Origin: Geothrix edaphica
Lineage (GTDB): Bacteria; Acidobacteriota; Holophagae; Holophagales; Holophagaceae
Reading direction: 5' to 3'
Length of the DNA stretch: 64,000 nt
Assembly: GCF_030268045.1 (NCBI RefSeq)
Contig: NZ_BSDC01000001.1
Location: 372,001 to 436,000 of the forward strand
The notes below the pieces were generated by a model that was given only the letters and a program-made list of their open reading frames with translations, was not told the origin of the DNA and made no database searches. The first letter of the stretch is position 1. Each line of letters opens with the position of its first letter. This document shows positions 8,563-39,370 of the stretch, one piece after another. The position numbers and the translations under genes are program-made.

Positions 8563-9138
8563 ATGTCAGCCCAATACACTTCCTTGCAGCCCCTGGACTT
8601 CGACCGCCTGCTGAAGCTTCGTCTTGTCGTGGCTAGGGTTGGGGAGCTCGGGTTAGCTGGCTGGTGGGGCACGAAGGATGTCCTCGGCAGTATGGGGGCC
8701 ATGGCCTATCGGCGCGGATTCCCCAGGTCGCATCACTGGGCCCAGGCCAAAGTCGTCTTCGAGGTGGCGCGGGCCCGTTGCCAGGAACGCTTCCCAGATC
8801 CCACGGCCATCACCCTCTGGAGCCTACCGGCCACCGTTGAGGAGCAGTTTGAGCATGCCTGGGGCCGCTGGATTGGGGAGAACGAGGCCTGGAAACCCTT
8901 CTTTGATCGGCTGAAGGAGTGGAAGTCTCCCTCACTGACGGAAGCCCTGAAGGCCTTCGATCTGTGGTCCCCAGGCATGGATGTGGCCACGGCCCAGGCG
9001 GCCCCTGCCACAGCCTCCCTTGCGCTGGGGACCTTTCCTAGCCTCGACCAAGCGTCGGTGGATGGTCTCGCAGTGGGCTTCTCCTTCGGCCAGCATGGGG
9101 AGCCGGTGGTCCCCTTCGTGCGCCTTCAGGAGGCCTGA
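8563..9138 (+). CDS. brxE: BREX protein BrxE
   Basis: The 191-aa protein carries the pattern I associate with BrxE: an N-terminal LRLVVARVGELGLAGWW segment, then MAYRRGFPR, then ITLWSLPATVEEQFEHAW. BrxE is known mainly as the first gene of type 6 BREX loci and its biochemical role is unsettled. Here too it is the first gene, and its stop overlaps the brxA start by one base (TGATG), implying translational coupling. It marks this locus as a hybrid, because the last gene of the cluster is brxL, typical of type 1. Confidence 0.75.
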   Translation: MSAQYTSLQPLDFDRLLKLRLVVARVGELGLAGWWGTKDVLGSMGAMAYRRGFPRSHHWAQAKVVFEVARARCQERFPDPTAITLWSLPATVEEQFEHAWGRWIGENEAWKPFFDRLKEWKSPSLTEALKAFDLWSPGMDVATAQAAPATASLALGTFPSLDQASVDGLAVGFSFGQHGEPVVPFVRLQEA

Positions 9139-9914
9139 TGGCGGCACCTGAGGCAACGGTCAGTTCGTACGGTGTGATCAAGGGCCCCATGGTCGAGGAG
9201 ACCTACGCCTGCTTTCGGGCCTGGGACTGGAAGCTGAATCAGAACGAGAACCTGAAGCGCCTCAAGGAGCAAAACTTCGTGGGGGCCGCCAGCGTGAACT
9301 GGCTGCGCGATGTTTACAAAGTGCTGCACAGCCGCTTCGACCCCAATGGCAAGGACAAGCCGCTGACGCTCCTGGCCCAGAAGGATCCGGGTCTCGAATC
9401 CTGGAAGCACCTGCTCCTCTGGCACTGGGCCCAGGACGAGTATCTGCTCCGCATGTTCCTGCTCGATTGGCTTGGCCCCCGACTCCGGGAAGGCTTCGTG
9501 CGCTTCAAGCCCGAAGACCTCCTACCGGCCCTGAAAAAGCTCTGGGACAAGGGCGGCCCGGTGGCCGAGCCCTGGTCCGAGGCGACCACCAAGCGCGTGG
9601 CAACGGGCCTGCTGAAGGCCGCTGCCATTTTCGGCCTCATGGAAGGTGGCACGGTAAAGACCCTGGCGACCTACCACCTCCCGGAGCCTTGCTTTATTTA
9701 TGCCCTTCGATTCCTGCTGGATCGCGAGGGTAGCCCGCGCAAGGCAGTCGAGGCCCCGGATTGGGGGATCTTCTTGATGGACTCGCAGGCCGTGAAGCAA
9801 GAGCTCCTGCGCCTCCATCAGTACCGGAAGCTGGAATACCACGCGGCAGGAAGCTTGGTGGAGCTCACGCTTCCCCACGCCAATCTGCTCGACCTTGTGA
9901 ATGGGTGGTCCTGA
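9138..9914 (+). CDS. brxA: BREX protein BrxA (DUF1819)
   Basis: The 258-aa protein has the DUF1819/BrxA layout. It has an N-terminal helical region with ETYACFRAWDW, a KHLLLWHWAQDEYLLRMFLLDWL core, and a C-terminal winged-helix-like part ending HANLLDLVNGW. BrxA proteins are small DNA-binding proteins of the BREX complex needed for phage exclusion in some systems. The gene overlaps brxE by one base and brxB by a TGATG junction, so expression of the three is coupled. Confidence 0.85.
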   Translation: MAAPEATVSSYGVIKGPMVEETYACFRAWDWKLNQNENLKRLKEQNFVGAASVNWLRDVYKVLHSRFDPNGKDKPLTLLAQKDPGLESWKHLLLWHWAQDEYLLRMFLLDWLGPRLREGFVRFKPEDLLPALKKLWDKGGPVAEPWSEATTKRVATGLLKAAAIFGLMEGGTVKTLATYHLPEPCFIYALRFLLDREGSPRKAVEAPDWGIFLMDSQAVKQELLRLHQYRKLEYHAAGSLVELTLPHANLLDLVNGWS

Positions 9915-10489
9915 TGAAGCCCTGGACGGAACGACTCCTCGATCTGGAGGCCCTGTTGGCGAAGCCGGACCCACGGCCCGACATCAGCGCCTACCATGAC
10001 ATGCCGTACGCCATTTTCCATTACCCCCCATCCGAGGAATTGGCCTTTCGACGCGAGATGAACCTGCTGGCCACTCGCCTGCGGAACCAGGCGGCCAAGC
10101 GCGTGTCCGTGCTCTCGTTGGCGGAGCTTCTGGACAAGGCTGTGGGTTCAGTCATGAGTTGGCCCGAGCTCATCTCCGACGAGCGCACCATCGGCCTACC
10201 CGAAGTGCAGGACACCCTCCACCAGATCCTCTCTGAAGAAGCGCCTTTGCCCGATCTGGTGGCCTCCGAGATGCCCCAGGATCCCGACCCCGAACGGGAT
10301 GTGGTCTTCCTCTGGCGGACAGGCTCGCTGTTCCCGTTCTACCGGACCTTTGCCTTGCTGGAACAACTCAAGGGCAAGGTCGTGGCCCCCACCATCCTCT
10401 GCTACCCAGGTTCGCTGGATGGCCCGGCTGGATTGCGCTTCATGGGCCAGCTTGAAGCTGAACACAACTACCGACCCAAGATTTTCTAG
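9914..10489 (+). CDS. brxB: BREX protein BrxB (DUF1788)
   Basis: The 191-aa protein is in the expected brxA-brxB-brxC order. The start at 9914 overlaps the brxA stop. Family features include the early HDMPYAIFHYPPSEE segment, the VVFLWRTGSLFPFYRT strand and the conserved end QLKGKVVAPTILCYPGSL followed by RFMGQ and NYRPKIF. BrxB is a DUF1788 protein required for BREX, with function unresolved. Twelve bases separate it from brxC. Confidence 0.88.
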   Translation: MKPWTERLLDLEALLAKPDPRPDISAYHDMPYAIFHYPPSEELAFRREMNLLATRLRNQAAKRVSVLSLAELLDKAVGSVMSWPELISDERTIGLPEVQDTLHQILSEEAPLPDLVASEMPQDPDPERDVVFLWRTGSLFPFYRTFALLEQLKGKVVAPTILCYPGSLDGPAGLRFMGQLEAEHNYRPKIF

Positions 10490-10501: not shown

Positions 10502-13500
10502 ATGACCGAACTCATCCGAACCCTCTTCGCCCAGGACATCGACCGGCGCATCGAGGAAGTGATCAAGGTGGACCAGGACGACGAGAGCCTTGTCCGCCAG
10601 GAAATCCGCGAATACGTCGCCACGGACGCCATCCAGAGCTCCTTCATCAAGCTCCTGGATCGCTACATGGAGACGCCCAACAAGCCCCACGAGGGCATTG
10701 GCATCTGGGTCTCAGGTTTCTTTGGGTCCGGCAAATCCAGCTTCGCCAAGTACCTCGGCGTGGGCGTGGAGAACCGCCCACTGGAGGGCCAAGGGGCCGC
10801 AGATCTTCTTGCGGAACGGTTCAAGGACAAAAAGGCCTCCCTGCTGCTTCACGGCATCAACGAGCGCATCCCCACCCATGTGGTGATCTTTGATGTCTCC
10901 ACCGAGAGGGACATCAAGGCCGGGCAGCCCCTGACGGAAATCACCTACAAGGCTCTCCTCAAGAGTCTCGGATATGCCAAGAACCTGGATCTTGCCGAGC
11001 TTGAAATCGCGGAGGAGGAAGGGGGCCGCCTGGAGGCCTTCAAGGCGACCTATCACGAGCTCTACGGCGAGGATTGGGACAAGTCCAAGCACCTCGTCAG
11101 CCGTGCCATGGGCCGTGCATCGGCGGTGATGAGCAAGCTGGAACCCCAGACTTATCCTGAGGCCGACTCATGGGCGAAAGGGGCCCGCTCCCAAGCGGAG
11201 TTGAATCCTGGCCTCCTGGCCACCCGCTGCAAGACCCTCCTGGATCGCCGGGCCCCTGGCAAAGCGCTGATGTTCGTCGTGGACGAAGTGGGCCAGTTCG
11301 TATCCAAGGATGTCCAGAAGATGCTGGATCTCCAGGCCATCGTGCAGCAGCTTGGTAAGACGGGCCGTGGCCGTTTCTGGCTCGTCGTCACGTCCCAGGA
11401 AAAGCTGACGGAACTCGTGAGTGGCCTGGATGACCGCACCGTGGAACTGGCTCGCGTCATGGATCGCTTTCCTCTGGAGCTCCAAGTCCATCTGGAGCCC
11501 AGTGACATCAGCGAAGTCACCAGCAAGCGAGTGTTGGAGAAGAACTCTGCCGCAGAGGCCAAGCTCCGCAAGCTCTTTGATGAATGCCGTGCGCGGCTGA
11601 CGGCCAGCACCAAGGTCGAAGCCTCCATCAAGCTGCCAGAGCTCTCCGCCCAGGCCTTCGCAGACCTCTACCCGGTGCTTCCCTACCAGGTGGATCTGAT
11701 CATCCAGATCGTTTCGGGCCTCCGCACGCAGGGAGGTGCCTCCAAGCACGTGGGCGGCGCGAACCGCACGATCATCAAGCTCGCCCAGCAGCTTCTGGTG
11801 AACCCCGGTGTGGCCCTGGCGGACAAGCCCCTCGGACAGTTGGTCACGCTCGACAAGGTGTACGACCTCGTGAGCGGCAACATCGAGAGCGAGATCCGGG
11901 GCAAGATCCAGGAAACCGGCCAGCATGTGGGGCACCCTCTGGCCCCCGACGTGGCCAAGGCCATCTGCCTCCTCCAGTTCGTGCCCACGGTGCCCCGTAC
12001 GCCGGAGAACCTCGCGGCGGTGCTCCACCCCTACATCGACGCCGACTCCCGCCTGCCGCAGGTCAAGGAGGCCCTCGGGGAACTGGAAAGGGCCCTTCTA
12101 GTGCGCCAGGACGGCAAGGGCCAGTACCGCATCCCAAGTCCTGTCGAGGACGACTGGGAGCGCCGCCGCAACGCCCTTGAGCTCAGGACGCCCGACCGCA
12201 ACAAGCTGCTGCGGGACATGCTCACATCCTTCTGGGAGCCTCAGCCCTCCCAGAACCTCCAGGGCGTGAAGCAGTTCAAGGCGGGCCTGCTCTTCAACAG
12301 CACCGAGCTCGTGGATGGGGACATCCCGGTGAACCTGCACCTCCTGGAGGAAGGGGCCGGATACGCAGAACGGCTTGAAGACCTACGCCGCCGAAGCCAG
12401 ACCGAGCCCCTCACCCTCTTCTGGGCCTGTGCCACGAATCCCGATCTGGAGGAGGAGCTCCGGGAGTTGTTCCGTTCCCAGGAGATCCTCAACATCAAGC
12501 GCAGGGAAGCCCAGACGCCGGAACAGAGCCACCTCCATAGCGAAGAGACGCGGCGCATGGGCAACCACAAGGACGAGCTCCGCCGTCGGCTCAAGGAGGC
12601 CGTCCTGGGTGGCACCGTCTACTTCCGGGGCAACGACCGCAGCCCGGCAGGGGCCAGTTCCGTCGACGCTGCCGTGAAGGCCCTTCTAGGACAGGCTCTG
12701 CCGGAGGTCTACCACCGCTTCGACGAGGCTGCGGCCCGTGTCGATGCGAAGGATCTTCAGGCCCTCATGGGGGCCGACAGCCTCAAGGGGCTGACCCCGA
12801 TCTTCAACAAGCTCGGTCTGCTCAAGGAGGAGGGCGGTAAAGCCCGCTTCGACGCGGAGCGCCCGCCACTATCGGATGCGCTGGCCCGTATTAAGGCTGC
12901 GGCGGACTATGGCAACACCATCACCGGCAAGATGCTGGAGGAGCAGTTCCGCAAGGAGCCCTTCGGCTGGGATTTCGACATGGTGAAGCTCCTGGTCCTC
13001 TGCCTCCTCCGGGCGGGCTTGATCGAGGTCCAGAGCGCGGGCCGCAGCTTCGACGATGCCCGGAGCATGGAGGCCAAGACCGCCTTCACCAACAACACCG
13101 CCTTCCGACAGGCCTCCTTCCGCCCCAAGGAGACTGTGGATTTCGCCGTGGTATTGCAGGCCGCCGAGGCCTTCAAGGCCACCTTCGGGAAGGAAGCCAA
13201 GGAACTGGAACAGGGCAAGGTCGCCCAGGACATCCGCGCCGAACTGGAGCGCCAGGAGCAGGAGCTCCAGGCCATGCACACGCTGCTGATCCGCCACAAC
13301 CTCCCCGGCGAGGAAACCATCCAGCAGGCCCTCGATCTGGCCCGGGATGTTCGGGGAGGCAAGGAAGAGCACACCATCCAGGCCTTCCGCAGCAACCACA
13401 CCACCCTGAAGGACGCCATCCAGCAGGCTTCGGAACTGAAGCGGAACCTGGACGAGCCAAAGCTCTTCTCACTCCAGAAGGCCCGCGAGGTGCTTCGCGG

Positions 13501-14041
13501 CCCCTGGGCCTTCCTGAGCACCGAACCGGAGCTTCCGGAAGACCTCAAAGATGCTGGGGCTCGGCTGAAGGACCTCATTGAGAAGGAGAGCTTCCACCGG
13601 GAAGTGGCCGAGATCGAGCGCCTCGGCATGAAGCTCCAGGACGCCTTCCGAAAGCTTCAGGAAGACGCCTTGGCAGCGCGGGCCGAAGCCTACGAGGCGG
13701 CCCTGCATCACCTTCAGGGCATGACCGGGTGGGCCGACCTGGATGAAGACCAGCGGGCCACCATCGCCAAGCCCCTCACAGATCTGGCAAGCGCCTACTG
13801 CGATCAGGCCCCACCCGTTCCCCAGCTTCGCGCCGACAAGGATGCGGCCCCCCTGCGGCTCCAGAAGGCTCAGGAGGAGATGATGCGCCTGCTGGAAGGC
13901 GAACGACTGGTGAGCCTTAAGCTGGCGCAGTTTTTCAATGGCGGTATCGAGAACGCGGACCAACTGGAAGCGGCCCTCGACGAGATCCGCAACGCCTGTG
14001 CGCCACTGCTGGCATCCGGCAAGAAGGTGGTGTTGCAGTGA
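10502..14041 (+). CDS. brxC: BREX ATPase BrxC
   Basis: The 1179-aa P-loop protein has the usual length for BrxC. Walker A is GFFGSGKS at residues ~72-79. A Walker B-like strand LMFVVDEVG lies at ~255-263, and a long helical C-terminal part follows. The N-terminal TELIRTLFAQDIDRRIEEVIK is typical of BrxC/PglY ATPases. BrxC is an essential BREX component and likely couples ATP hydrolysis to assembly of the methylation/exclusion complex. Its TGA overlaps the ATG of the following nuclease gene by one base, so that extra gene is translationally tied to the core. Confidence 0.93.
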   Translation: MTELIRTLFAQDIDRRIEEVIKVDQDDESLVRQEIREYVATDAIQSSFIKLLDRYMETPNKPHEGIGIWVSGFFGSGKSSFAKYLGVGVENRPLEGQGAADLLAERFKDKKASLLLHGINERIPTHVVIFDVSTERDIKAGQPLTEITYKALLKSLGYAKNLDLAELEIAEEEGGRLEAFKATYHELYGEDWDKSKHLVSRAMGRASAVMSKLEPQTYPEADSWAKGARSQAELNPGLLATRCKTLLDRRAPGKALMFVVDEVGQFVSKDVQKMLDLQAIVQQLGKTGRGRFWLVVTSQEKLTELVSGLDDRTVELARVMDRFPLELQVHLEPSDISEVTSKRVLEKNSAAEAKLRKLFDECRARLTASTKVEASIKLPELSAQAFADLYPVLPYQVDLIIQIVSGLRTQGGASKHVGGANRTIIKLAQQLLVNPGVALADKPLGQLVTLDKVYDLVSGNIESEIRGKIQETGQHVGHPLAPDVAKAICLLQFVPTVPRTPENLAAVLHPYIDADSRLPQVKEALGELERALLVRQDGKGQYRIPSPVEDDWERRRNALELRTPDRNKLLRDMLTSFWEPQPSQNLQGVKQFKAGLLFNSTELVDGDIPVNLHLLEEGAGYAERLEDLRRRSQTEPLTLFWACATNPDLEEELRELFRSQEILNIKRREAQTPEQSHLHSEETRRMGNHKDELRRRLKEAVLGGTVYFRGNDRSPAGASSVDAAVKALLGQALPEVYHRFDEAAARVDAKDLQALMGADSLKGLTPIFNKLGLLKEEGGKARFDAERPPLSDALARIKAAADYGNTITGKMLEEQFRKEPFGWDFDMVKLLVLCLLRAGLIEVQSAGRSFDDARSMEAKTAFTNNTAFRQASFRPKETVDFAVVLQAAEAFKATFGKEAKELEQGKVAQDIRAELERQEQELQAMHTLLIRHNLPGEETIQQALDLARDVRGGKEEHTIQAFRSNHTTLKDAIQQASELKRNLDEPKLFSLQKAREVLRGPWAFLSTEPELPEDLKDAGARLKDLIEKESFHREVAEIERLGMKLQDAFRKLQEDALAARAEAYEAALHHLQGMTGWADLDEDQRATIAKPLTDLASAYCDQAPPVPQLRADKDAAPLRLQKAQEEMMRLLEGERLVSLKLAQFFNGGIENADQLEAALDEIRNACAPLLASGKKVVLQ

Positions 14042-14655
14042 TGACCTGGGCCGAGCGCTTCCAAACCTTTTTCAGCCGTCCGGAGTTCCTAAAGGAGCTT
14101 GCGACTATCTGTTCCGCCGAAGGCTGCCGGGAAACCTGGCTGCACGGCAATGCCTTCATTCATTTCAATACCCGAGGGAAGCAACTCGCCCAGGAATCCT
14201 TTCGAGTGAACTCCCATCCTCTTTCCGCCCAGCATCGAGGAGGGAAAATCGATTTTGCTGCATATGAGGGAGATCAACTCCGGATGATTGCAGAGTGCAA
14301 ATTTCTGGGCGTCAGCGACTATTACGCCAAGGGACTCGCAGGTTGTGGAATCAATCGCCTGAAGCAGCTTCAACGAGATCCCAAAAGGCGCGGACTGACC
14401 TTCACCAAGGACGATTTCTCCGCCTTCGAAATGGGGGCATGGAGCCTCCTTCGCGACTACCAGAGGCTCTCGACAAGTTGGCCTGCCAAGCGTGATGTGG
14501 AGCGCTACCTCATTCTGGTTCTGGATAAGAGCAATACTCCCGATTCCTTCGGAGCGCTGCTGGATCAGGCGGAGTTCGGTGGCCCCCATACGCCACTGAT
14601 CTCCTCTGACATTCCGAACCTCGCCGTCAAGCTCTGGCGCGTGGAGACGGAGTAG
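14041..14655 (+). CDS. PD-(D/E)XK-like nuclease inserted between brxC and pglX
   Basis: The 204-aa protein contains a restriction-endonuclease-like signature: GGKIDF (Asp ~71) followed 16-18 residues later by IAECKF (Glu ~84, Lys ~86), with hydrophobic strands around both. This is the D-ExK arrangement of PD-(D/E)XK nucleases. The rest is mixed alpha/beta, ending in a strand-rich region with LILVLDKS. Start 14041 overlaps the brxC stop, and pglX begins 5 bp after its end. Such a gene is not part of the standard six-gene BREX set. A role in cleaving unmodified or modified phage DNA is an inference. Confidence 0.65.
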   Translation: MTWAERFQTFFSRPEFLKELATICSAEGCRETWLHGNAFIHFNTRGKQLAQESFRVNSHPLSAQHRGGKIDFAAYEGDQLRMIAECKFLGVSDYYAKGLAGCGINRLKQLQRDPKRRGLTFTKDDFSAFEMGAWSLLRDYQRLSTSWPAKRDVERYLILVLDKSNTPDSFGALLDQAEFGGPHTPLISSDIPNLAVKLWRVETE

Positions 14656-14660
14656 CCGGT

Positions 14661-16517
14661 ATGGACGCTCAACTCGTCAACCTCATCGCCTCCACCACCC
14701 AATCCGCCCGGCGTCTTCTGGAGCGGGAATTCGCCGAACAGTTGGAAGGCAGCTTCGACCTGAGGCCCGCCGGCCCCCTGCCAGAGAAGGCGGGCAGCCA
14801 CTTGGACGCTCGTCAGGCCCTGCTGCGGGACAAGCTGTATGCCCTCGTTCGCCACAAGATGGCGGCGGGCAAGTCCCAGGCTCAGGCGGTCCAGGAGGTT
14901 TGCCATGCAGCGGCCTTCACGACCCTGAACCGCTTTGCGGCCCTCAAGATGCTGGAAGCACGTGGGCTCATCCAGGAGTGCGTTTCAAAGGGTGACCAGT
15001 CCTCCGGCTTCAAGGAGTTTTGCGGGCTGGCCCAGAGCCTCGCCGTGCAGGAGGGGGCCTACGCCCTCTACCTGGGCTGCCTCTTCGACGAGCTCGCGGT
15101 GGAAGTGAAGGTGCTCTTCGACCGGCAGGAGCTCTCCGGCCTGCTCTGGCTCCGGCGGCCCGCCCTGCTGGCCCTACTCGAACTCCTCAATGCTCCGACC
15201 TTGGCCCTCGCCTGGGTCGAGGACGAAACCATCGGCTGGACCTACCAGTACTTCAACAGTCTGGATGAGCGCCGCGAGATGCGGGCCGCCAGTGCGGCCC
15301 CCCGCAACAGCCGGGAACTGGCGGTGCGCAACCAGTTCTTCACGCCCCGCTACGTAGTGAAGTTTCTGGTGGACTACACCCTGGGCGAGCTCTTCCAGAA
15401 GGAGCCCAAGGACCCTCGCGATCTCAAGGTGCTGGACCCCGCCTGCGGCAGCGGCCATTTCCTGCTCTACACCTTCGAGGTGCTCCTGGGAATCTACCGG
15501 GCAGCCTGGGAGATGGAAGACCTCCCGCCGTCCACCGTTTTGGGGAAAACCCTGCGCGAGGACTTTGGCACCTGGGAGGCCCTGGAGAAGGCCATACCCG
15601 CCCTTATCTTGAAGCACAACCTGCACGGCGTGGACATCGACGGGCGCTGCGCCCAGATCGCGGCCCTCTCCCTCTGGATGCGGGCCCAGAAGACCTTCCA
15701 GGCCCAAGGCATCGCCGCCGGAGACCGACCCCTGATCACCAAGGTCAACATCGTCGTGGCTGAGCCCATGCCCGCTGAGAAGGACGAACTCCAGGCCTTT
15801 CTGGACCAGCACCTCTCTAGTGATGTGGAAGCTCGCATGCTGGGCCAGCTTCTGAAAGAGGTCTTTGAGGCCATGAAGCTGGCTGGGGAACTGGGCAGCT
15901 TGCTGAAGGTGGAGAAGGCCATCGCCGCCACCCTGGAGGCTGCGGAAAAGCAGTGGCGACGAGGCATCCAAGGTGTCGCCCCACGGAGCCTCTTTGGGAG
16001 CGATACGGCGATTTCCCAACGTCAAAGGCTGGAGTTCGAAGTCTCGGGTATTGACCGTAGCTTCTGGCAGGAAGCTGAGGCACGGCTCTACAAGGCCCTC
16101 CAGGCCTTCGCCGAAGAAGCGACCCGCATGCAGGGCTACCAGAGGCAACTCTTTGCCGAGGATGCGGCTCACGGTTTCGCGCTCATCGACCTTCTTCGCC
16201 AGAATTACGACGTGGTGCTGATGAACCCGCCATTTGGAGAATGCTCCTTACCTTCAAGGACTCTATTCCAAAAGGATTACCCTAGAACCAAGTCCAACTT
16301 ATACGCTGCATTTGTGGAGCGAGGCGTTGATCTATTGCGACCAACAGGGCGTTTGGGTGCGATTACGAGTCGAACAGGATTCTTTTTGTCGACATATTCG
16401 CGTTGGAGAACCGAGATAATGTTAAAGGAATCGACGCCTATTTACGTAGTTGATTTGGGCTTAGGCGTTTTAGATGCAATGGTTGAAACTGCTGCATATA
16501 TTATCGAGAAACAGTGA
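14661..16517 (+). CDS. pglX: BREX adenine-specific DNA methyltransferase PglX, N-terminal part (split gene)
   Basis: The 618-aa product contains the N6-adenine methyltransferase core of PglX. The SAM-binding motif LDPACGSGHF is at residues ~257-266 and the catalytic motif NPPF at ~521-524. The frame then ends right after the methyltransferase core at ETAAYIIEKQ. PglX is normally one ~1200-residue protein; the rest is in the next frame. DNA from about 16240 onward is AT-rich while everything before is GC-rich, so the last ~90 residues have a different origin. The TGA at 16515-16517 overlaps ATG 16517-16519, so a two-chain PglX by reinitiation is possible. A single-base frameshift, biological or from assembly, is the alternative. 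Confidence 0.88.
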   Translation: MDAQLVNLIASTTQSARRLLEREFAEQLEGSFDLRPAGPLPEKAGSHLDARQALLRDKLYALVRHKMAAGKSQAQAVQEVCHAAAFTTLNRFAALKMLEARGLIQECVSKGDQSSGFKEFCGLAQSLAVQEGAYALYLGCLFDELAVEVKVLFDRQELSGLLWLRRPALLALLELLNAPTLALAWVEDETIGWTYQYFNSLDERREMRAASAAPRNSRELAVRNQFFTPRYVVKFLVDYTLGELFQKEPKDPRDLKVLDPACGSGHFLLYTFEVLLGIYRAAWEMEDLPPSTVLGKTLREDFGTWEALEKAIPALILKHNLHGVDIDGRCAQIAALSLWMRAQKTFQAQGIAAGDRPLITKVNIVVAEPMPAEKDELQAFLDQHLSSDVEARMLGQLLKEVFEAMKLAGELGSLLKVEKAIAATLEAAEKQWRRGIQGVAPRSLFGSDTAISQRQRLEFEVSGIDRSFWQEAEARLYKALQAFAEEATRMQGYQRQLFAEDAAHGFALIDLLRQNYDVVLMNPPFGECSLPSRTLFQKDYPRTKSNLYAAFVERGVDLLRPTGRLGAITSRTGFFLSTYSRWRTEIMLKESTPIYVVDLGLGVLDAMVETAAYIIEKQ

Positions 16518-17960
16518 TGCCTAAAACAATATTCATTCGACTCCTCGCTGAACAGGACAAGGAAAAGGCTCTTGATACAGCAATTCATTCAATTCGAACA
16601 AATAAACCAAATAGTAATATTTATGAAGTTGAGTCAGATACCTTTAATTATATCCCTGGTAGTCCCATGGGGTATTGGGTTAGTGATGCAGTGCGTTTCA
16701 CTTTTAAGAAATTTTCAGCCTTCGAGTCTGAGACCAGAACTGCATGCCAAGGTATGGCTACAGCAGATGATATAAGATTTGTAAGAAATTGGTGGGAAAA
16801 TCCAAAGTTTGAAATTAATAAAGAATGGTTTTTCTTTGCAAAGGGCGGTGCTTATAACCAATACATTGGTCAGCCAAATTTGGTTGTGAATTGGGCACAC
16901 GATGGCAATGAATTAAAATCTTGGGCTGGATCACTTTATAACAACTCTCATTGGTCGAGAATTATTAAAAACGTTAGCTGCTATTTCAGGCCTGGTATTA
17001 CTTGGTCCCTCCGAAGCCAAAAAGGTCTCTCGTTCAGGGCTTTACCCAAAAATTGCACATTTAGCGTCCAAGGCCCTTGTGGGTTTTTACAAAATAATGA
17101 ACCCAATGATTTATTAATCACCTTGGGTATTATGAATAGCTCGTGCTTTTTAGGACTAGTAATGCTTCAATCTGCATTCGGAAAATTTGAAGTCGGGATG
17201 ATTCAAAGATCGCCGATGCCAATTGTGAACAGCAAGGAGAGAAGCACTATATTAACTCAAGTAAATAAAATTGTAGCAAATAAACAATATTTAGAATCAT
17301 TTGATGAAACGAATACTAACTACACTAGTCCGATTAGTTGGACTACCAATTTTCAATCATTGCTGAATCTTTTCTCGGAGCACGCCCAAAAAGTTCTATT
17401 ACTAGAAGAAGAGAATAAAATTGCGCAAGAGCAGATTAATTTAGCGTGCTGGGATATTTTTGGTATTACGGAATCTGATCGCCAAGCGCTTTTATCTCCA
17501 ACACCCGCTGTGCAGCAAGCGGAGAATGAGGAGCCCGAAGAAGACGATAGTGCTGAAGAAATTTTTGTTGAATCCATCTCGAATTCAGCCCTCGCTGGAA
17601 ATTTCTGTTCATGGTTATTTGGGGCTGCAATCGGAAGGTGGGACATTGGCATTGCTACAGGTAGGACCATACTAAGTCCAATTCCGGGACCCTTCGAGAG
17701 CTTGCCAGTGGTTAGCCGAGGCATGCTAGGAAGTGCAGAAGGTATTCATCCCTCCCTAGACGTTCATGGACGGTTTTTACCTGAGCATGATCTACTTCTA
17801 GATGATAATGATGAAAAATTGGATCTAGTAAGACAAGTTCGCGGTGTGTTGGAAAGCGTAGCCGGGAATCATGCTGATTCCTGGTTCATAGAGCTTGAGA
17901 GTTTGCTCAATTCAGACTTGCGCACCTGGTTCCGTCGCTCTTTTTTTGAACATCACCTAA
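16240..17960. other. AT-rich recombinant patch inside pglX (target-recognition region)
   Basis: From about 16240 to 17960 the base composition changes abruptly from the island's usual high GC to clearly AT-rich, with A/T-ending codons (for example around 16570-17560). It returns abruptly to high GC near TACCAAGAGCCGACGCAAGG. Both borders fall inside coding sequence: after the NPPF motif on the left, and before the C-terminal part on the right. The patch spans the region expected to hold the target-recognition domain, as if this module had been replaced from an AT-rich donor. Confidence 0.75.
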
Positions 17961-18859
17961 AACGCTATACCAAGAGCCGACGCAAGGCCCCCATCTACTG
18001 GCAGCTTGGCACGCCCTCGGGTAGCTACTCTGTGTGGCTCTACTACCCGCGCCTCACCCGCGACAGCCTGTTCCGCCTTCTGAACGACGTGGTAAAGCCC
18101 AAGGTTGCCTACGAGGAACAGCGACTCGCAGGGATGCGGGAGCAGAACGCCCGGCGCACCGAACTGGAGCCCCAGGAGGCCCTGGTGGAAGAGCTCCAGG
18201 CCTTCCGGGACGAGGTGGCCCGCGTGACGCCCCTCTTCGACCCCAATCTGGATGATGGCGTCCTGATCAACGCCGCCCCGCTCCACCGCCTGTTCGTGCA
18301 TGCCGGATGGCGGCGGGACACTCAGGCCGCCTGGGCCCAACTGGTGCGCGGCGACTTCGAATGGTCCAACATGGCCCTCCACCTCTGGCCCGAACGTGTG
18401 ATCCCCCTATGCGCCGAGCAGCGCCATCTGGCCCTAGCCCATGACCTGGAGGGGCCCTTGAAGACCCGCAGCGTGGATGATCTGGTCGCGGCCCACACCC
18501 GGCCCGCCGTGAAGGAATCCCTTCAGACCCTGCTCAACGCCTCGCCCCAGGCCGGAGGCCGCTCGGCAGGCCGACTCGCACGGGCCCCACGCGCCCCCCG
18601 TCCGGCTCCGGAACCCCTCACCGCTGCGGAACCCACGCCTCGGGCCCCCCGTGCCGGCGCCGAGGTGCCCGAAGCCACCCTGGCCGCCATCCGCGAAGTC
18701 CTGGCCCGCTTCCCCGGTGGGGCCGCAAAGTCCGATGTCCTCTCCGCCACGGGCATCCCGGACGGCACCTGGAACGCCGCCATCTCCCAGCTACTGGCTA
18801 CCGGCGATGTGGAAAGCCAGGGCGAGAAACGCGGAACTCGCTATTTCCTGAAAGCCTGA
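16517..18859 (+). CDS. pglX: PglX C-terminal part (target recognition and C-terminal domain)
   Basis: The 780-aa product continues PglX after the split. It begins MPKTIFIRLLAEQDKEKAL, which is the segment that follows AAYIIEK in intact PglX. A recognition-like region follows (GKFEVGMIQRSPMPI). The LACWDIFGI segment and an acidic linker (PEEDDSAEE) come next, then the conserved RKAPIYWQLGTPSGSYSVWLYY. The final ~100 residues add a Pro/Ala/Arg-rich linker and a small winged-helix-like domain (VLARFPGGAAKSDVLSATGI). The first half is AT-rich, the second GC-rich. Start ATG 16517 overlaps the upstream stop (TGATG). Whether the two chains form an active enzyme cannot be told from sequence. Confidence 0.82.
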   Translation: MPKTIFIRLLAEQDKEKALDTAIHSIRTNKPNSNIYEVESDTFNYIPGSPMGYWVSDAVRFTFKKFSAFESETRTACQGMATADDIRFVRNWWENPKFEINKEWFFFAKGGAYNQYIGQPNLVVNWAHDGNELKSWAGSLYNNSHWSRIIKNVSCYFRPGITWSLRSQKGLSFRALPKNCTFSVQGPCGFLQNNEPNDLLITLGIMNSSCFLGLVMLQSAFGKFEVGMIQRSPMPIVNSKERSTILTQVNKIVANKQYLESFDETNTNYTSPISWTTNFQSLLNLFSEHAQKVLLLEEENKIAQEQINLACWDIFGITESDRQALLSPTPAVQQAENEEPEEDDSAEEIFVESISNSALAGNFCSWLFGAAIGRWDIGIATGRTILSPIPGPFESLPVVSRGMLGSAEGIHPSLDVHGRFLPEHDLLLDDNDEKLDLVRQVRGVLESVAGNHADSWFIELESLLNSDLRTWFRRSFFEHHLKRYTKSRRKAPIYWQLGTPSGSYSVWLYYPRLTRDSLFRLLNDVVKPKVAYEEQRLAGMREQNARRTELEPQEALVEELQAFRDEVARVTPLFDPNLDDGVLINAAPLHRLFVHAGWRRDTQAAWAQLVRGDFEWSNMALHLWPERVIPLCAEQRHLALAHDLEGPLKTRSVDDLVAAHTRPAVKESLQTLLNASPQAGGRSAGRLARAPRAPRPAPEPLTAAEPTPRAPRAGAEVPEATLAAIREVLARFPGGAAKSDVLSATGIPDGTWNAAISQLLATGDVESQGEKRGTRYFLKA

Positions 18860-18870
18860 GGAGTACCCGG

Positions 18871-19884
18871 ATGATCTTCACGGTGCCCAACAAGAACCTT
18901 GTCACTGCCCAGAAGGTGTCTCCAGGAACCTTCCTCGACCTGAAAATCTGGGAACGCCAGCACATCGAGCAGTGGGTAATCAACAATCCTGAGATTCTTG
19001 GCGAAGAGCTCCTGATCCTTACTGCCGAATTCAGCGGGTTCGAACAGAGCAAGGATCGATTGGATGTCCTGGCCCTCGACCGGCAAGGGAACGTGGTTGT
19101 CATTGAGTTGAAGCGGGACGGTCTGGCCGCCTATGCCGATCTTCAGGCCCTGCGCTACGCCGCCATGGTGGCTTCTCTCACCATTGAGAAAGTCATTCCT
19201 TACTACATCAAGTTCAGAAAGCGTGTGGCTGATGAGGTGCTTACCGAAGAACAAGCCAAGGCAGAGATCCAGGACTTCGTTATCTCCGACACCTTTGAGG
19301 AGTTCTCGACCAAAGCACGGATCATTCTGTGTTCCGAGGATTTCTCGAAGGAGATCACCAGCACCGTGCTCTGGCTCCGGGACTTCGGCGTGGATCTGAG
19401 TTGCATCAAGATCACGCCCTACGCGATGGAGGATAAAGTTGTCATCGTCCCTCGGGTGCTTATTCCGCTAGAGGAAGCTAAGCAGTATCTGATCGGGATT
19501 CAGGCGAAGGAAAACCCACAGCCGTCCAAGGGAGCCAAGCGCCAACGAACGGTGAAGATCCTTCTCGAAAACGCATTGGTGAAGGCTGGGGACAAGGTGT
19601 TCCTGAAAAACGGACTCCCCTCATTCCTCCAATTCAAGAAGGATGACCCCATCTTTTCTGCGGAAATCACTGGGCTCAAGGGGCAGAGCGACGCCATTCG
19701 CTGGGCCAATGACGGACAGTGCTACTCGTTGTCCAATCTGGCCTGGAGCATTTTTAAGGAGCATCACCCGGAGGGCAAGGATCCCGGTGGTGTGAATGGC
19801 GCTTGGCATTGGGTGAATGAACAAGGCGTTTCTCTCTGGGATTTGGCAGAGAAACACTTGGCTGCGGCCTCCACCAAAGCCTGA
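18871..19884 (+). CDS. NucS/DUF91-like PD-(D/E)XK nuclease inserted between pglX and pglZ
   Basis: The 337-aa protein has an N-terminal nuclease core with KDRLDVLALDRQGNVVVIELKRD. Asp ~65, Glu ~79 and Lys ~81 form the D-ExK signature, typical of NucS/EndoMS and DUF91-type enzymes. The preceding helix (ERQHIEQWVINNPEILGEE) is also family-like. The C-terminal third (after GAKRQRTVKILLENALVKAG) is a separate small domain resembling DNA-binding or modification-sensing add-ons. GAGGA precedes the start and the gap to pglX is 11 bp, so it belongs to the BREX transcript. Specific substrates are unknown. Confidence 0.72.
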   Translation: MIFTVPNKNLVTAQKVSPGTFLDLKIWERQHIEQWVINNPEILGEELLILTAEFSGFEQSKDRLDVLALDRQGNVVVIELKRDGLAAYADLQALRYAAMVASLTIEKVIPYYIKFRKRVADEVLTEEQAKAEIQDFVISDTFEEFSTKARIILCSEDFSKEITSTVLWLRDFGVDLSCIKITPYAMEDKVVIVPRVLIPLEEAKQYLIGIQAKENPQPSKGAKRQRTVKILLENALVKAGDKVFLKNGLPSFLQFKKDDPIFSAEITGLKGQSDAIRWANDGQCYSLSNLAWSIFKEHHPEGKDPGGVNGAWHWVNEQGVSLWDLAEKHLAAASTKA

Positions 19885-19902: not shown

Positions 19903-22437
19903 ATGCATCCACTCCACGACCGTATCTCCGCTCTCCTCCATGCCCACCTAGCGTCCAAGCGCATCGTGGTGTGGTACGACCCACGCAAAGAGTTCGAGCC
20001 CTACTTCACTGAACTCCTCGACAGCAAGACCACTGGAGAAGGTCTGGTGCCAGTGAAGTTCAAGAAGCTCAAGGTGCAGGTAGGAGTCTTTCGGGGCTCC
20101 TACTTCGCGCTCCGCCAGCAGGCCGAGCCCCATTACGCCAAGGAGGAGCCGGATCACCTGCTCCTGTACCTCCCCGGCGAAACCTGGGCGCAAAAAAGCT
20201 CTCCCCTTATGGAGCTCGATCTCGCGGGCCACCGATACACGGATCTGTCGCTTCGCCGCGAAGCTCGGCATTGCCTCAAGGATGTGGGCTACTCGGATGG
20301 CGTGATCGACGATCTACTTCGGCCCGAGTCCCTCGGCTACGCAGATCTGGTGCGGGTCCTTGCCGGAGGAGGCGAAGGCCAGGGCAGTGGCCTGCTGAGG
20401 ACTGTCTTCAAGGAAACGGACTCCGAATCCCTGATCGCCGCGTGGCTGGCGGATCCCAACACGGACGAGAAATTGGGCCAGAAGGATGCAGGTGCGGAAC
20501 TGCTCAAGCTGGTGGCCAGCCGGGTGGGGGCCACGCTTCCGGTTGAACTGCCTAAGACTCGGCGCATTCTGTTCCGCTATCTGCTGGTCAACGAGTTCCG
20601 GTCTGATCTCCAGGGCTCGACGGTCGAAATACCTGGATCCGTTCCTGCCGCTGGAACGAAAGAACTGGAGCGGGTTCGCAAGATCGCAGGCCTCCTGAGA
20701 AGCCACCATACTGAGGCCTACCGGGCCGCTGCGGACGAGGTGGAACAGGAACTGGGGCTGCCGACCCTCGGCATACATCCGGATCACCTGGGCAGCCTGG
20801 ACACCTTCCGCTTCGAAGAGCGGGCCCTCTTTGGCCGCTGCGCGGAACACATCGCAGAGCGTCGATTCCAGCAGGCCCTGGATCTGGCCTCGGCCCGGCA
20901 GACCAGCTTCTGGCTCACCCCCGAGCGGCGCAGCCAGTGGGAGCTCTGCGCCCGCATGGCCACCCTGGGGCTCGCCATGGAGGCCGCTAAGGGCCAACTG
21001 CAGGGCCTGAAGGACAAACCGGAGGCCTGGTTCGGTTGGTACACCGAAGGCGAGGAGGCGGGCCACCTTGTGGATCGCCGCTTCCGAGAATTGGAGACGG
21101 CAGTTTCCACCCTGGAGGAGGACCCCGAAGCGGAACCGGCCTACAGCCTCATTCGGCAGTCCTACGACCGCTTCCTGGAGGGTTGCACGGAAGGCTTCAC
21201 GGCGGCCCTCGCCAAGCGGGGATGGCAGGTGCCGGGCGCGTTGCACCAGACCCGCGTCTTCGAGGACGTGGTGCGGCCCCTTCCCGCCAAGAAGGCCCTG
21301 ATCCTGGTGGACGCCCTTCGCTACGAAATGGCCGTGACCCTGAAGGCCCGCCTGGAAGACCGCGTCGACGAGCTCAAGCTGCGGCCCGTGGTGGCAGCCA
21401 TGCCGACCATTACGCCCGTGGGCATGGCCGCCCTGATGCCAGGGGCCGCGACCAGCTTCGAAGTCGCTGAAGAAGGTGGGAAGCTGGGATCCAAGGTCAG
21501 CGGCACCTTCCTCCCGGATCTGGCGGCCCGCAAAAAGTGGCTGAAGGAATCGGTCCCAGCTAGCACGGACCTCGATCTCCAGAGCGTTCTCACCCTGGCC
21601 CCGGCGAAGCTCAAGGCCCAGATCGACGGCGCAGACCTCGTGGTGGTCCGCTCCCAAGAGATCGATGCCTCAGGTGAAGGCGGCCTTGGCAGCGTGGCCC
21701 GCCGCGTCATGGATGGCCTGCTCACCACGGATCTGGTGAAGGCCATGCGCCGTCTGAGTCAAGCGGGCATCACCCACTTCGTGCTTTGCGCCGACCACGG
21801 CCACCACTTCGCTCGGGCCAAGGAAGACGCCATGAAGCTCGACCTCCCAGCGGGCCAGCGGATCGAGGATCACCGCCGCTGCGTCATTGGTCGTGGGCTT
21901 CAGGTGGCCAATGGATGCGTCAAGGCCACGGCCCAGGAGCTTGGTTACACCTCCGATCTGGAGTTCCTGTTTCCGGACGGGGCCGGTGTCTTCAAGTGCG
22001 GTGGCGATCTGGCCTTCCACCACGGCGGCCCCAGCCTCCAGGAGCTTGTGGTGCCCCTGCTGACTTGGCGCGCCAGGGGAGCAGACGATCAGGCCACCGA
22101 AGCCGTTCAGGTTCGTCTGGAGGGCCTGCCGGAGACGGTCACGAACCCCATCTTCACGGTGAGCATTGAGTGCTCTCAGGGCCTCTTCGCCCAGCCGTTG
22201 AAGGTCTATCCCGTGCTGATGGCTCAGGACCGCGTGGTCGGTGAAGTCGTAACCGCATTCGACTGCGAGCGGGACGACGCTACCCAGCAGGTGACGCTGG
22301 AGCCGGGCCGCAAGGCAACGTTGGTGTTCCACCTAAAGGACGAATCCCCGGCAAGCATCCAGGTCAAAATTCTGGATCCCCGCACGGATTCTGAACTCCT
22401 CAAGCCCAAGACCCTGCCTGTTTCCCTGACGAGATGA
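19903..22437 (+). CDS. pglZ: BREX phosphatase-like protein PglZ
   Basis: The 844-aa protein has a C-terminal alkaline-phosphatase-superfamily domain. The strand ALILVDALRYEMA (~464-476) carries the metal-binding Asp, and FVLCADHGHHF (~626) carries the DHG histidine cluster. The N-terminal third starts RIVVWYDPRKEFEPYF, typical of BREX PglZ. PglZ is a core protein of all BREX systems. Its ATGA end overlaps brxL, so the two are translationally coupled. Length is normal. Confidence 0.93.
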   Translation: MHPLHDRISALLHAHLASKRIVVWYDPRKEFEPYFTELLDSKTTGEGLVPVKFKKLKVQVGVFRGSYFALRQQAEPHYAKEEPDHLLLYLPGETWAQKSSPLMELDLAGHRYTDLSLRREARHCLKDVGYSDGVIDDLLRPESLGYADLVRVLAGGGEGQGSGLLRTVFKETDSESLIAAWLADPNTDEKLGQKDAGAELLKLVASRVGATLPVELPKTRRILFRYLLVNEFRSDLQGSTVEIPGSVPAAGTKELERVRKIAGLLRSHHTEAYRAAADEVEQELGLPTLGIHPDHLGSLDTFRFEERALFGRCAEHIAERRFQQALDLASARQTSFWLTPERRSQWELCARMATLGLAMEAAKGQLQGLKDKPEAWFGWYTEGEEAGHLVDRRFRELETAVSTLEEDPEAEPAYSLIRQSYDRFLEGCTEGFTAALAKRGWQVPGALHQTRVFEDVVRPLPAKKALILVDALRYEMAVTLKARLEDRVDELKLRPVVAAMPTITPVGMAALMPGAATSFEVAEEGGKLGSKVSGTFLPDLAARKKWLKESVPASTDLDLQSVLTLAPAKLKAQIDGADLVVVRSQEIDASGEGGLGSVARRVMDGLLTTDLVKAMRRLSQAGITHFVLCADHGHHFARAKEDAMKLDLPAGQRIEDHRRCVIGRGLQVANGCVKATAQELGYTSDLEFLFPDGAGVFKCGGDLAFHHGGPSLQELVVPLLTWRARGADDQATEAVQVRLEGLPETVTNPIFTVSIECSQGLFAQPLKVYPVLMAQDRVVGEVVTAFDCERDDATQQVTLEPGRKATLVFHLKDESPASIQVKILDPRTDSELLKPKTLPVSLTR

Positions 22438-24470
22438 CCATGAACGCCAGCCCCCAGCGCGATCCCCTAGACGACAAGGTAAACCGCCACTTCGCCGGGA
22501 AGGTAGTCCGAAAGGATCTCGTCCGGAAGGTGAAGGTGGGGGCAAATGTGCCGGTGTTTGTTCTCGAATACCTGCTTGGGAAGTACTGCGCCTCGGCAGA
22601 CGAGATGGCCATCCAGGTCGGTCTCCAGGTGGTGAATGACACCCTTGCGAAGAACTACATCCGCCCGGATGAAGGCCCCAAGGCCCAGAGCAGAGTCAAG
22701 GAAGCCGGAAAGTACAGCTTCATCGACAAGGTGAAGGTCCGCCTCGTGGACTCGGAGTATTGGGCCGAGGCCAACAACTTCGGACACAAGAACCTCCATG
22801 TGCCTACCCACTACGTCGTGGACTACGAGCGCCTGCTCACGGGCGGGATCTGGGCCCAGATGGACATGCGCTTCGAATACGACGAGGAGTCCAAGGGCAA
22901 ATACCCCTTCTGGATCGATCGCCTGAACCCCATCCAGATCGCGAGCTTCGACCTGGAGGAATACCGGAAGCTGCGCCAGGAGTTCACCACGGACGAGTGG
23001 ATCGACTTCATCCTCCGGAGCCTTGGCTACGAGCCGACGGCCATGGACCGCCGCCTGAAGCTGCTCTTCCTCATCCGCCTGATTCCTTTGACGGAGCGGA
23101 ACTACAACATGGTGGAGCTCGGCCCCCGTGGCACGGGCAAGAGCTACGTAATCCAGGAAGTCAGTCCCTACGCATCACTGCTGACCGGCCCCACTACCGT
23201 GGCAAACCTCTTCGGCCACATGAACGGGAAACAGAAGGGCATGGTGCAGATCTGGGACGTGGTGGGCTTTGACGAGGTGGCCGACCTCCAGAAAATGCCC
23301 AAGGAAGTCATCACCACGATGAAGACGTATTGTGAGTCCGGAAGCTACCAGCGGGGCCAAGAGGCGACCTCGGGTGATGGTTCCATCGCCATGTTCGGGA
23401 ATACCCAGCAACCCATTGATGTGATGGTCCAGTCGGGCCACCTCTTCGAGCCAATGCCCGACGTGATCCGGGATGACATGGCCTTCATCGACCGTCTGCA
23501 CTTCTATCTCCCTGGCTGGGAGATCCCGAAGATGCACAACGACCTCTTCACCGACCACTACGGCTTCGTGGTGGACTACCTGGCAGAGGCCCTACGAGAG
23601 CTCCGGAAGCACAACTTCACGGAGGTTATCGACCACCACTTCGCGCTCGGGGCCCACCTCAACGCACGTGACCGCAAGGCCGTCCGCAAGACCGTTTCCG
23701 GCCTGATGAAGATCCTCCACCCCCATGGCCAGTGCAGCCAGGAGGAGATGGGCGAACTGCTGGAACTCGCGCTGGAAGGGCGTCGGCGCGTGAAAGAGCA
23801 GCTAAAGAAGATGGGGAGCTTCGAGTACTACCACACGAGCTTCAGCTACACCGTGCAGGAGAGCGGCGAAGAGCGCTTTGTGGGCGTTCCCGAACAAGGG
23901 GGCCGCGACCTCATCAGCCAGGATCCACTGTCTCCCGGAACGGTCTACGCTGCCGGAGTTTCTGCCGAAGGCACCGTGGGCCTCTACCGGGTGGAGGTCA
24001 CCCTTTCCTCCGGCACCTCAAAGCTAAAGCTGGCGGGTGGCATCAGTGGCAGCACCAAGGAGGCCCTCCAGCGGGCCTTCGGGTATCTCCTGGCCCACAA
24101 AACCGATCTGAGCGTGGCCAAGGACGTCGATACCTCTGACTTCCACGTGGAGGTGGTCGACCTCCTGAACAACCGCCTCGAAGTAGAACCCGGCGTGGCC
24201 TTCTTTGTGGCCTTCATGTCGGCCCTCCGGAAGGCCCCTGTCTCCCCGGCCATGCTGATCCTGGGTGACCTCAGTATCCAGGGCAACCTGAAGCCCCTCC
24301 GCAGCCTCGTAGAGCCCCTCCAAGTCGGCATGGACAACGGAGCACGCCGGGCCCTCGTCCCCATTGAGAACAAGCGCAACTTCTTGGAAGTCACCGGAGA
24401 CGTTGTGGAGAAGGTGGATCCGGTGTTCTTCGGGGATCCGAAGATGGCGGCAGCGAAGGCGATTGGGTGA
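22434..24470 (+). CDS. brxL: BREX AAA+ protein BrxL (Lon-like)
   Basis: The 678-aa protein has the type 1 BREX BrxL architecture: an N-terminal DNA-binding-like domain, an AAA+ core with Walker A GPRGTGKS (~residues 230-237), and a Lon-protease-like C-terminus. In the C-terminal domain the segment that holds the catalytic Ser in Lon reads VEPGVAFFVAFMSAL, and no equivalent Ser or Lys is seen. This agrees with the published view of BrxL as a DNA-binding AAA+ restriction factor rather than a protease. It ends the BREX operon, 28 bp before the RES-domain gene. Confidence 0.92.
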   Translation: MTMNASPQRDPLDDKVNRHFAGKVVRKDLVRKVKVGANVPVFVLEYLLGKYCASADEMAIQVGLQVVNDTLAKNYIRPDEGPKAQSRVKEAGKYSFIDKVKVRLVDSEYWAEANNFGHKNLHVPTHYVVDYERLLTGGIWAQMDMRFEYDEESKGKYPFWIDRLNPIQIASFDLEEYRKLRQEFTTDEWIDFILRSLGYEPTAMDRRLKLLFLIRLIPLTERNYNMVELGPRGTGKSYVIQEVSPYASLLTGPTTVANLFGHMNGKQKGMVQIWDVVGFDEVADLQKMPKEVITTMKTYCESGSYQRGQEATSGDGSIAMFGNTQQPIDVMVQSGHLFEPMPDVIRDDMAFIDRLHFYLPGWEIPKMHNDLFTDHYGFVVDYLAEALRELRKHNFTEVIDHHFALGAHLNARDRKAVRKTVSGLMKILHPHGQCSQEEMGELLELALEGRRRVKEQLKKMGSFEYYHTSFSYTVQESGEERFVGVPEQGGRDLISQDPLSPGTVYAAGVSAEGTVGLYRVEVTLSSGTSKLKLAGGISGSTKEALQRAFGYLLAHKTDLSVAKDVDTSDFHVEVVDLLNNRLEVEPGVAFFVAFMSALRKAPVSPAMLILGDLSIQGNLKPLRSLVEPLQVGMDNGARRALVPIENKRNFLEVTGDVVEKVDPVFFGDPKMAAAKAIG

Positions 24471-24498: not shown

Positions 24499-25677
24499 AT
24501 GGGGACAGCTAAAGCGTGGCAAATGGAGCAGGAAGATAGAGGATATTATGGAATAGGGACGAACTTTTGTAAAAACTGCGTCGATGACGCTAACGTAATA
24601 AAATTTATCAAAAATAGCGGTCTAATACATACGACTGATCAATGTTCATACTGCAATATTACAAAAAAAGTTTGGTCTACCGATGATTTGATGGATACGC
24701 TTGCTTCAAAAATCTTTGAAGAATGGGGTGACCTTCATGACGGTAGGGTTCCTTATGATGATGAAACCGGCGACCCAATCGGGAATGAACATTCTTTTAG
24801 CACTGAAGAATTACTTGAGCATGAAGGCTTTTTGGTAAGCTCAACACAGCTTCAAGAAGATATACAAAATGCATTTATTGCAACCGAATGGTGCGAAAAC
24901 GATCCATTTGGAGACAATGAGGAGCTTACACTCAAGATCAGCTGGAATGAGTTTTCGAATATCGTAAAACATAAAATGCGATATACATTTTTCCGAAATA
25001 CAAATCAAGCCGATTCATATGTCTATACACCCCTTGAATTGCTTAACAATATGAAACGCATTTTTATGTTCAAGGGAATGCTCCAAACCATAAGTGCTGG
25101 GGCTACTATTTTTAGAGCAAGGCCTGGATTTGGACATAATGGCGGGAAAGCACTAGGGACTCCTCCTATTGGATACGGTGGTGCCAACAGAATGAGTCCA
25201 GAAGGAATTGGAATGTTTTATGGCGCTTTTGACGAAGAGACATGCTTCAAGGAATTGTTTGATTATAAAAAACCAAAAAAGAACCACTGTTCAATTGGAC
25301 AATTTATTACAACATGTGATTTAAAGGTCTTGGATTTAACAAAATACCACAACAGTAGTGTTTTAAATGAAAACAACAAAGAAAAGCGAGAAATACTGAG
25401 ATTTTTGAATCATTTTCAAAAAGAAATTTCAAAACCTCTTTCATCAAAAAATTCGCAAATCGATTACATACCAACTCAAGTTTTAACTGAATTTATTAGA
25501 TATAATCTGATTTCCAAAAAAGGCCACGGCATAGACGGAATAAAATATAGAAGTTCGAAAAATTATGGCCATAACTGTGTAGTATTATTTGTAATGCATG
25601 AAGAGTGTGGAAATAAATCAGATGTAAATACAAAATTGAATTTAGTTTCCGCATCAAACAGAAGAGTTGGGCCATAG
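24499..25677 (+). CDS. RES-domain protein (probable NAD+-degrading toxin) with Cys-rich N-terminus
   Basis: The 392-aa protein is encoded by strikingly AT-rich DNA, unlike its neighbours. Its C-terminal half has RES-domain hallmarks: an Arg in ATIFRARPG (~203-211), then GTPPIGYGGANRMSPEGIG, then MFYGAFDEETCFKEL. RES proteins are known NAD+ glycohydrolases or phosphorylases (for example MbcT, ParT). The N-terminus has two CxxC pairs (Cys24/27 and Cys49/52) suited to zinc, and an acidic linker. No Xre-type RES antitoxin is adjacent. Placed 28 bp behind brxL, it may act as an abortive backup to BREX. That role is inference. Confidence 0.72.
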   Translation: MGTAKAWQMEQEDRGYYGIGTNFCKNCVDDANVIKFIKNSGLIHTTDQCSYCNITKKVWSTDDLMDTLASKIFEEWGDLHDGRVPYDDETGDPIGNEHSFSTEELLEHEGFLVSSTQLQEDIQNAFIATEWCENDPFGDNEELTLKISWNEFSNIVKHKMRYTFFRNTNQADSYVYTPLELLNNMKRIFMFKGMLQTISAGATIFRARPGFGHNGGKALGTPPIGYGGANRMSPEGIGMFYGAFDEETCFKELFDYKKPKKNHCSIGQFITTCDLKVLDLTKYHNSSVLNENNKEKREILRFLNHFQKEISKPLSSKNSQIDYIPTQVLTEFIRYNLISKKGHGIDGIKYRSSKNYGHNCVVLFVMHEECGNKSDVNTKLNLVSASNRRVGP

Positions 25678-38343: not shown

Positions 38344-38383
38344 AGCCATGCGGCTTTACTGATGGATTACGGAGCTGGGTTCT

Positions 38384-39115: not shown

Positions 39116-39183
39116 CCTCGGGGGCCATATGGATCTGTTCAGGGCCTCGCCAAATCGACTTCGAGAGATCCCAACTGGGAACG

Positions 39184-39210
39184 AAAAAGCCACCCCAAAG
39201 GGTGGCTTTT
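39184..39210. terminator. Bidirectional terminator between integrase genes and tRNA-Pro
   Basis: AAAAAGCCACCC-CAAA-GGGTGGCTTTT forms a GC-rich 7-bp stem extended by A:T pairs, with a T run on each strand. On the plus strand it ends the integrase transcript. On the minus strand it is the first terminator downstream of tRNA-Pro, replacing the tRNA's original hairpin, which now lies at the far end of the island. Confidence 0.8.
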
Positions 39211-39293
39211 CTGAGGATGACCTGGTGGGCTGTGCTGCGGATGTGCAGCGCATTCCAGGGGTGTTGCCAAATCTCCTCATTTCAAGTTTTTTT

Positions 39294-39370
<77 letters not shown>

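Follow-up and report, generated by a model that had tools for sequence, protein, structure and literature searches.

In the 64,000-nucleotide stretch of Geothrix edaphica DNA analysed here (the window), the methylase gene pglX of a BREX type 1 operon is present as two adjacent genes, and the boundary between them lies within an AT-rich cassette (16218..17984, plus strand, the outer limits of both border intervals) that encodes the specificity elements of the enzyme. Exchange at these borders is evident from the comparison of relatives, while for the window itself we infer it from base composition and from the mismatch in kinship between flanks and cassette. The explanation as a whole, in which an exchanged cassette with a gene break has given a two-chain PglX whose motif is set by the cassette, is considered probable.

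The brxA, brxB, brxC, pglX, pglZ and brxL genes that make up the BREX type 1 set are found in one operon on the plus strand, with a brxE-like gene (8563-9138), brxA (9138-9914), brxB (about 9761-10489, identified by its likeness to the matching region in relatives), brxC (10502-14041), the two pglX genes, pglZ (19903-22437) and brxL (22434-24470). BrxA, BrxC, both halves of PglX, PglZ and BrxL were assigned by PADLOC and Pfam matches. A canonical BREX type 1 system has a one-gene pglX and the window has two open reading frames (ORFs) joined at a TGATG seam, and we class the system as a BREX type 1 variant. An ORF of 205 amino acids and no known family (14038-14655), whose counterpart is absent from the compared loci, lies between brxC, which it overlaps by four bases, and the first pglX gene. 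Between the second pglX gene and pglZ there is another ORF (18871-19884), which belongs to the candidate defence family PDC-S11, has a GC content (0.53-0.56) below that of its neighbours and gives a weak, sub-cut-off match to the endonuclease NucS. A HEPN/RES-domain gene (24499-25677) directly 3' of brxL is AT-rich (GC 0.30-0.42), with a base composition like that of the pglX cassette, and is likely a toxin-like accessory of the island. A HipA-like gene is located at 32478-33755 and a phage-type integrase gene adjoins a tRNA-Pro gene (39294-39370, minus strand) in the region 37057-39370; the integrase beside tRNA-Pro suggests that BREX and the HipA-like gene lie on an integrated island.

The first pglX gene, pglX-N (14661..16517, plus strand), encodes 618 amino acids that comprise the N-terminal helical domain and the methyltransferase core, with motifs I (DPACGSGHF) and IV (NPPF) of gamma-class adenine methylases. 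The second, pglX-C (16517..18859, plus strand), encodes 780 amino acids with the last methylase strands, the target-recognition domain (TRD), the spacer, the C-terminal domain and an extra C-terminal winged helix, so the elements that define PglX/BrxX (motifs I and IV, TRD, spacer and C-terminal domain) are distributed over both halves. Translation of pglX-C starts at ATG 16517 or at GTG 16514. Its ORF overlaps pglX-N in the -1 frame, and in the TGATG stop/start seam (16515..16519, plus strand), which lies at the split point common to nine loci, the last base of the pglX-N TGA is the first base of the pglX-C ATG. The PADLOC PglX profiles cover both ORFs between them, and the PADLOC library contains half-length PglX models that end or begin at the seam (PDLC02526 and PDLC02532). 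The winged helix (18662-18856, residues 716-780 of PglX-C) is also present in the unsplit genes of loci L010 and L029, which belong to the same flank lineage. Elsewhere in the genome, neither a second pglX copy nor a silent store of cassettes was found.

Predicted structures place the two halves end to end along known PglX structures. The PglX-N model (pLDDT 86, pTM 0.86) aligns with residues 1-611 of Salmonella PglX (Z 28.2, rmsd 3.0, 510 residues aligned), and the PglX-C model (pLDDT 81, pTM 0.74) with residues 614-1222 (Z 26.2, rmsd 4.2, 534 aligned). PglX-N also resembles HsdM-like structures, while PglX-C weakly resembles the type I-like PacII S subunit. The last predicted strand of PglX-N is formed by residues 609-617 and the first of PglX-C by residues 3-7, so the seam cuts the loop between two consecutive methylase strands. 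In the methylase sheet, the break separates the motif VIII strand from its successor, and it precedes the hinge at 654-659, as described for PglX (PMC11341690). The TRD has approximate limits of 16634..17287 (plus strand), from alignment with PglX structures. In the structure of E. coli BrxX with DNA, base contacts are made by the TRD and by a methylase loop at 587-601 (PMC11842806), and in Salmonella PglX specificity was changed by engineering at 684-838 and 591-600 (PMC11341690). Both of these specificity elements, the methylase loop and the TRD, are enclosed in the cassette; in the first reading of the DNA the patch was described as the end of the methyltransferase core together with the recognition region. 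Since both elements lie inside, a changed BREX target motif is likely for the window enzyme. Their enclosure also offers a reason why the left border would lie at the catalytic motif rather than at the hinge.

The GC content is 0.60-0.66 from 14.6 to 16.2 kb, 0.37-0.47 from 16.2 to 18.0 kb and 0.67-0.73 thereafter, which bears out the dip between two GC-rich pglX ends. A two-change-point fit along pglX gives third-position GC (GC3) values of 0.81, 0.33 and 0.80 to the left of, inside and to the right of the patch; the log-likelihood rises by 160, and by no more than 11 in any of 20 codon shuffles. From neighbouring BREX genes, a GC3 of 0.81 would be expected inside the patch at the same amino-acid composition, where 0.33 is observed (z = -30). 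The borders fall within 16218-16236 and 17954-17984 (intervals within 3 log units), and they match the sharp limits at 16240 and 17960 that were given by the first-pass annotation. The left border coincides with the codons of NPPF, the catalytic motif IV (16224..16235, plus strand), and the right one with those of KSRRKAPIYW (17972..18001, plus strand); both are common to relatives and the left one also to E. coli alleles. The patch does not lie within a single pglX gene, as had been thought, and spans the 3' end of the first ORF and the 5' two-thirds of the second.

Relatives of the window gene were drawn from whole genomes, plasmids, genome contigs and viral contigs, and 20 pglX genes were used, the window's included; the set is small, and several loci come from contigs that are filed as viral and may be host or plasmid DNA. 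Of these 20 genes, split or not, 19 show a significant central GC3 dip that exceeds all shuffles, so low GC alone is no proof of a recent event in this Geothrix edaphica strain, and an AT-rich centre peculiar to the strain was rejected. The first-pass annotation had set an AT-rich centre in homologous genes, at equal divergence across the gene, against the idea of exchange; the AT-rich centre is indeed widespread among relatives, whereas the divergence across the gene is far from equal.

The proposal of modular exchange is well supported by close pairs of relatives, in which identity drops at NPPF and recovers in the KSRRKAPIYW region. The proteins of L024, which is split, and L031, which is unsplit, are 97% identical before NPPF and 80% identical in the C-terminal domain, and between them 40, 26 and 21% identical in the methylase end, TRD and spacer. 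Their DNA identity, mostly 0.83-0.93, falls right after the NPPFG codons and comes back up at APIYW. The pairs L023/L031, L024/L030, L023/L030 and L030/L031 have protein identities of 89-96% on the left, 22-47% inside and 80-90% on the right, except for 77% in the right flank of L023/L031. Overall, protein identity in these five pairs is 89-97% to the left, 77-90% in the C-terminal domain and 20-47% between the shared borders. Right borders are found at about 990-1010 or at 1104 when the two window proteins are numbered as one. L022/L025, a less similar pair, shows the same pattern. High-identity flanks, a divergent centre and shared borders, which together mark recombinational exchange, are found in four pairs (L024/L031, L023/L031, L030/L031 and L024/L030) and in seven E. 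coli alleles.

None of these seven E. coli pglX alleles is split. Up to NPPY (residue 510) their DNA identity is mostly 85-100%; inside it is mostly 20-60%, and it recovers at about 950-1000. In L052/L056, L053/L057 and L056/L058 the methylase end is shared and divergence starts only from the hinge (about 648) on. Six of the seven alleles have a drop in GC content inside, from 0.46 to about 0.35-0.39. Together with the GC3 dips in 19 of the 20 genes, the E. coli sequences make an AT-rich, exchangeable centre look general in BREX type 1 methylases, which weakens the earlier argument from composition only and supports exchange. For the window there is no direct before-and-after pair, as its genome has no second pglX or cassette and no close pglX relative was found in 77 genomes of the family of Geothrix edaphica, the same genus included.

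The split itself is conserved. Nine of the 20 genes, from several lineages, are divided at the identical point (the window, L011, L014, L016, L022, L023, L024, L026 and L028), with the pattern VETAAYVLEKQ-stop / M..FLRLL..DK..AL. The second gene overlaps the first in seven split loci, by ATGA in L022, L023, L024, L026 and L028 and by TGATG in the window. A Shine-Dalgarno-like 4-mer lies 9-12 nucleotides before the next start in seven of the nine split genes (not in the window or L016; in L014 and L011 the next gene is an inserted one) and at the same codons in one of the 11 unsplit genes. The pglX halves of L014, a Thioflavicoccus plasmid, are separated by a UvrD-like gene and a DUF2290 gene, and those of L011 by an ORF of 210 amino acids and no known family; the unsplit L045 has an insert of 80 residues at the same seam. 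Conserved residues are kept in both halves of split genes, and in close pairs, those with split genes among them, the flanks to either side of the cassette have a dN/dS of 0.03-0.13. On the NCBIfam BREX-1 PglX model the window halves score 360 and 294 bits, below the cut-off of 500, and the annotation calls the Thioflavicoccus C half a hypothetical protein, so split systems are easily mislabelled.

In L016, short direct repeats and an inverted copy are found in the gap between the pglX halves (L016:15691-15870). L032, which was considered as a second split type, was excluded, as its stop lies inside the spacer without a coupled start and may be a sequence error or a pseudogene; L046 was excluded for a stop in the N-terminal domain. 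L012 has the closest N-terminal domain (61%), but is cut short and was kept out of the pglX trees; in this Chloroflexota MAG the N-terminal domain runs into DprA-like sequence (L012:8001-9257), which is probably a scaffolding error. Phage records contain only distant pglX relatives, and a scan of viral contigs with the C halves returned the known loci and one weak match.

Trees of flanks and cassette disagree on the history of the split. In the left-flank tree, split and unsplit genes are fully interleaved, with nine changes of state, of which the starred branches force at least seven, and the grouping of all split genes in one clade is rejected by both flanks (left p 2e-67, right p 6e-64). 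For the methylase part of the cassette, four changes suffice and such a grouping is not rejected (p 0.25); when the TRD, whose alignments are weak, is added, the result is borderline (p 0.03, or 0.10 without L045). The best cassette trees, in which branches are long, need four to five changes. Split genes resemble one another more in the methylase end than unsplit ones do (0.567 against 0.401, p 0.0002) with no difference in the flanks, so this excess similarity is confined to the cassette and, with the disagreement between trees, marks the gene break as a property of the cassette. The near-twins L024 and L031, one split and one fused, likewise indicate that the split travels with the exchanged cassette. 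The left flank of the window is sister to that of the unsplit L044 (96/97), followed by the unsplit L010 and L029 (90/98), and its BrxA, BrxB, BrxC, PglZ and BrxL are all nearest those of L044 among the loci of known pglX state. The C part of its cassette is nearest L024, L045, L014, L026 and L028, all split except L045. As its operon groups with unsplit lineages, the window pglX was probably an unsplit gene until it acquired a split cassette.

The preferred mechanism can be set out as follows. A cassette would have entered pglX horizontally, by recombination between the codons of NPPF motif IV and those of KSRRKAPIYW, both of them highly conserved. The sequence replaced would run from the last part of the methylase domain, recognition loop included, through the TRD and the spacer into the beginning of the C-terminal domain. 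Cassettes of this type carry a built-in gene break in the methylase sheet, and their uptake, as the trees suggest, would divide a single pglX into two genes with coupled translation. PglX-N (the counterpart of residues 1-611) and PglX-C (that of 614-1222) would then assemble without a covalent link into one PglX, which would methylate the motif set by the cassette and license restriction there. PglX/BrxX enzymes are defined as m6A methylases specific for an asymmetric 6-bp motif.

Most BREX type 1 systems have a single ORF in this place, and the presence of two could also mean that a frameshift has cut the gene and left a pseudogene, with the system dead or off, and truncated pglX genes do occur. 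This is very unlikely, given that nine loci of several lineages share the split point with coupled starts, that the seams of L014 and L011 have taken up extra genes, and that both halves keep their conserved residues, with low dN/dS in close split pairs. Less likely still is a ribosomal frameshift at the overlap, which would yield a single full-length PglX and make the split only apparent. It would suit the -1 frame of the second gene and its overlap with the first in most split loci; however, an X XXY YYZ slippery heptamer is absent from the overlap in all seven loci with overlapping frames, whole genes stand between the halves of L014 and L011, and most split loci have a ribosome-binding-like site ahead of the internal start. 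That the AT-rich centre was never imported, and owes its composition to rapid local evolution or a relaxed choice of codons in the recognition domain, would agree with the GC3 dip common to split and unsplit genes, but is hardly probable: the window borders are abrupt at the codon level, the fall from 85-92% DNA identity in the flanks to about 20-55% in the centre is too abrupt for point mutation, and centre and flanks follow different trees.

A more serious alternative, although still the less probable one, is that a permissive seam was split repeatedly, by independent events, and that no single cassette lineage carried the split. The four to five changes needed by the best cassette trees favour it, as does the insert in the unsplit L045, which indicates that the seam tolerates change. 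It is opposed by the greater likeness of split cassettes before the seam (57% against 40%) and by the cassette methylase part, for which a single origin stands unrejected; even with several origins, L024 and L031 show exchange moving the split. Beyond the preferred reading of an exchanged cassette with a built-in break, it is a speculative idea, to which we give little weight, that specificity has become a separable subunit, with PglX-C pairing in trans with other PglX-N chains and the seam serving as a landing site for methylase-coupled regulatory genes or domains, such as the ORF of L011, the gene pair of L014 and the insert of L045.

The PglX/BrxX proteins of E. coli HS (PDB 9ewz) and Salmonella (PDB 8c45) have the same domain order, motifs and operon partners as the window enzyme, but are formed by one chain, whereas the window has two coupled genes and the extra C-terminal winged helix. 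Restriction-modification systems of type I, type III and other kinds are known to exchange recognition domains, as in the "domain movement" of Helicobacter pylori (PMC3077401, PMC3983042). As in the window, the recognition part moves there between otherwise similar methylase genes; the block exchanged in pglX differs in that it contains a gene boundary and begins inside the methylase core. To our knowledge, such exchange in restriction-modification systems, within or between genes, leaves the gene number unchanged. Separate methylase and specificity chains are also found in type I HsdM and HsdS and in type IIB enzymes of the BcgI type, but the PglX break is inside the methylase sheet and not between domains, and PglX has one TRD and a BREX-specific C-terminal domain; shared ancestry with these arrangements is not implied. 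M.AquI and M.EcoHK31I are naturally split C5 methylases (PMC3404938), in which, as proposed here, one methylase works as two chains together; unlike PglX, they are cytosine-5 enzymes, split elsewhere and without an exchange cassette. The words split, fission and recombination are absent from the main text of a 2026 survey that covers BREX diversity in 3937 taxa (PMC12839542), and no description of split, truncated or irregular pglX was found in the literature searched, although an earlier mention of truncated genes is possible. As far as this literature shows, a BREX exchange cassette with a built-in gene boundary is new.

These results locate a natural exchange of BREX specificity, in which a left border at the catalytic motif takes the recognition loop along with the TRD. 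The position of this border may bear on the failed engineered loop swaps in E. coli BrxX (PMC11842806). With the gene boundary inside the cassette, a single exchange can alter the subunit number of the methylase together with its target motif.
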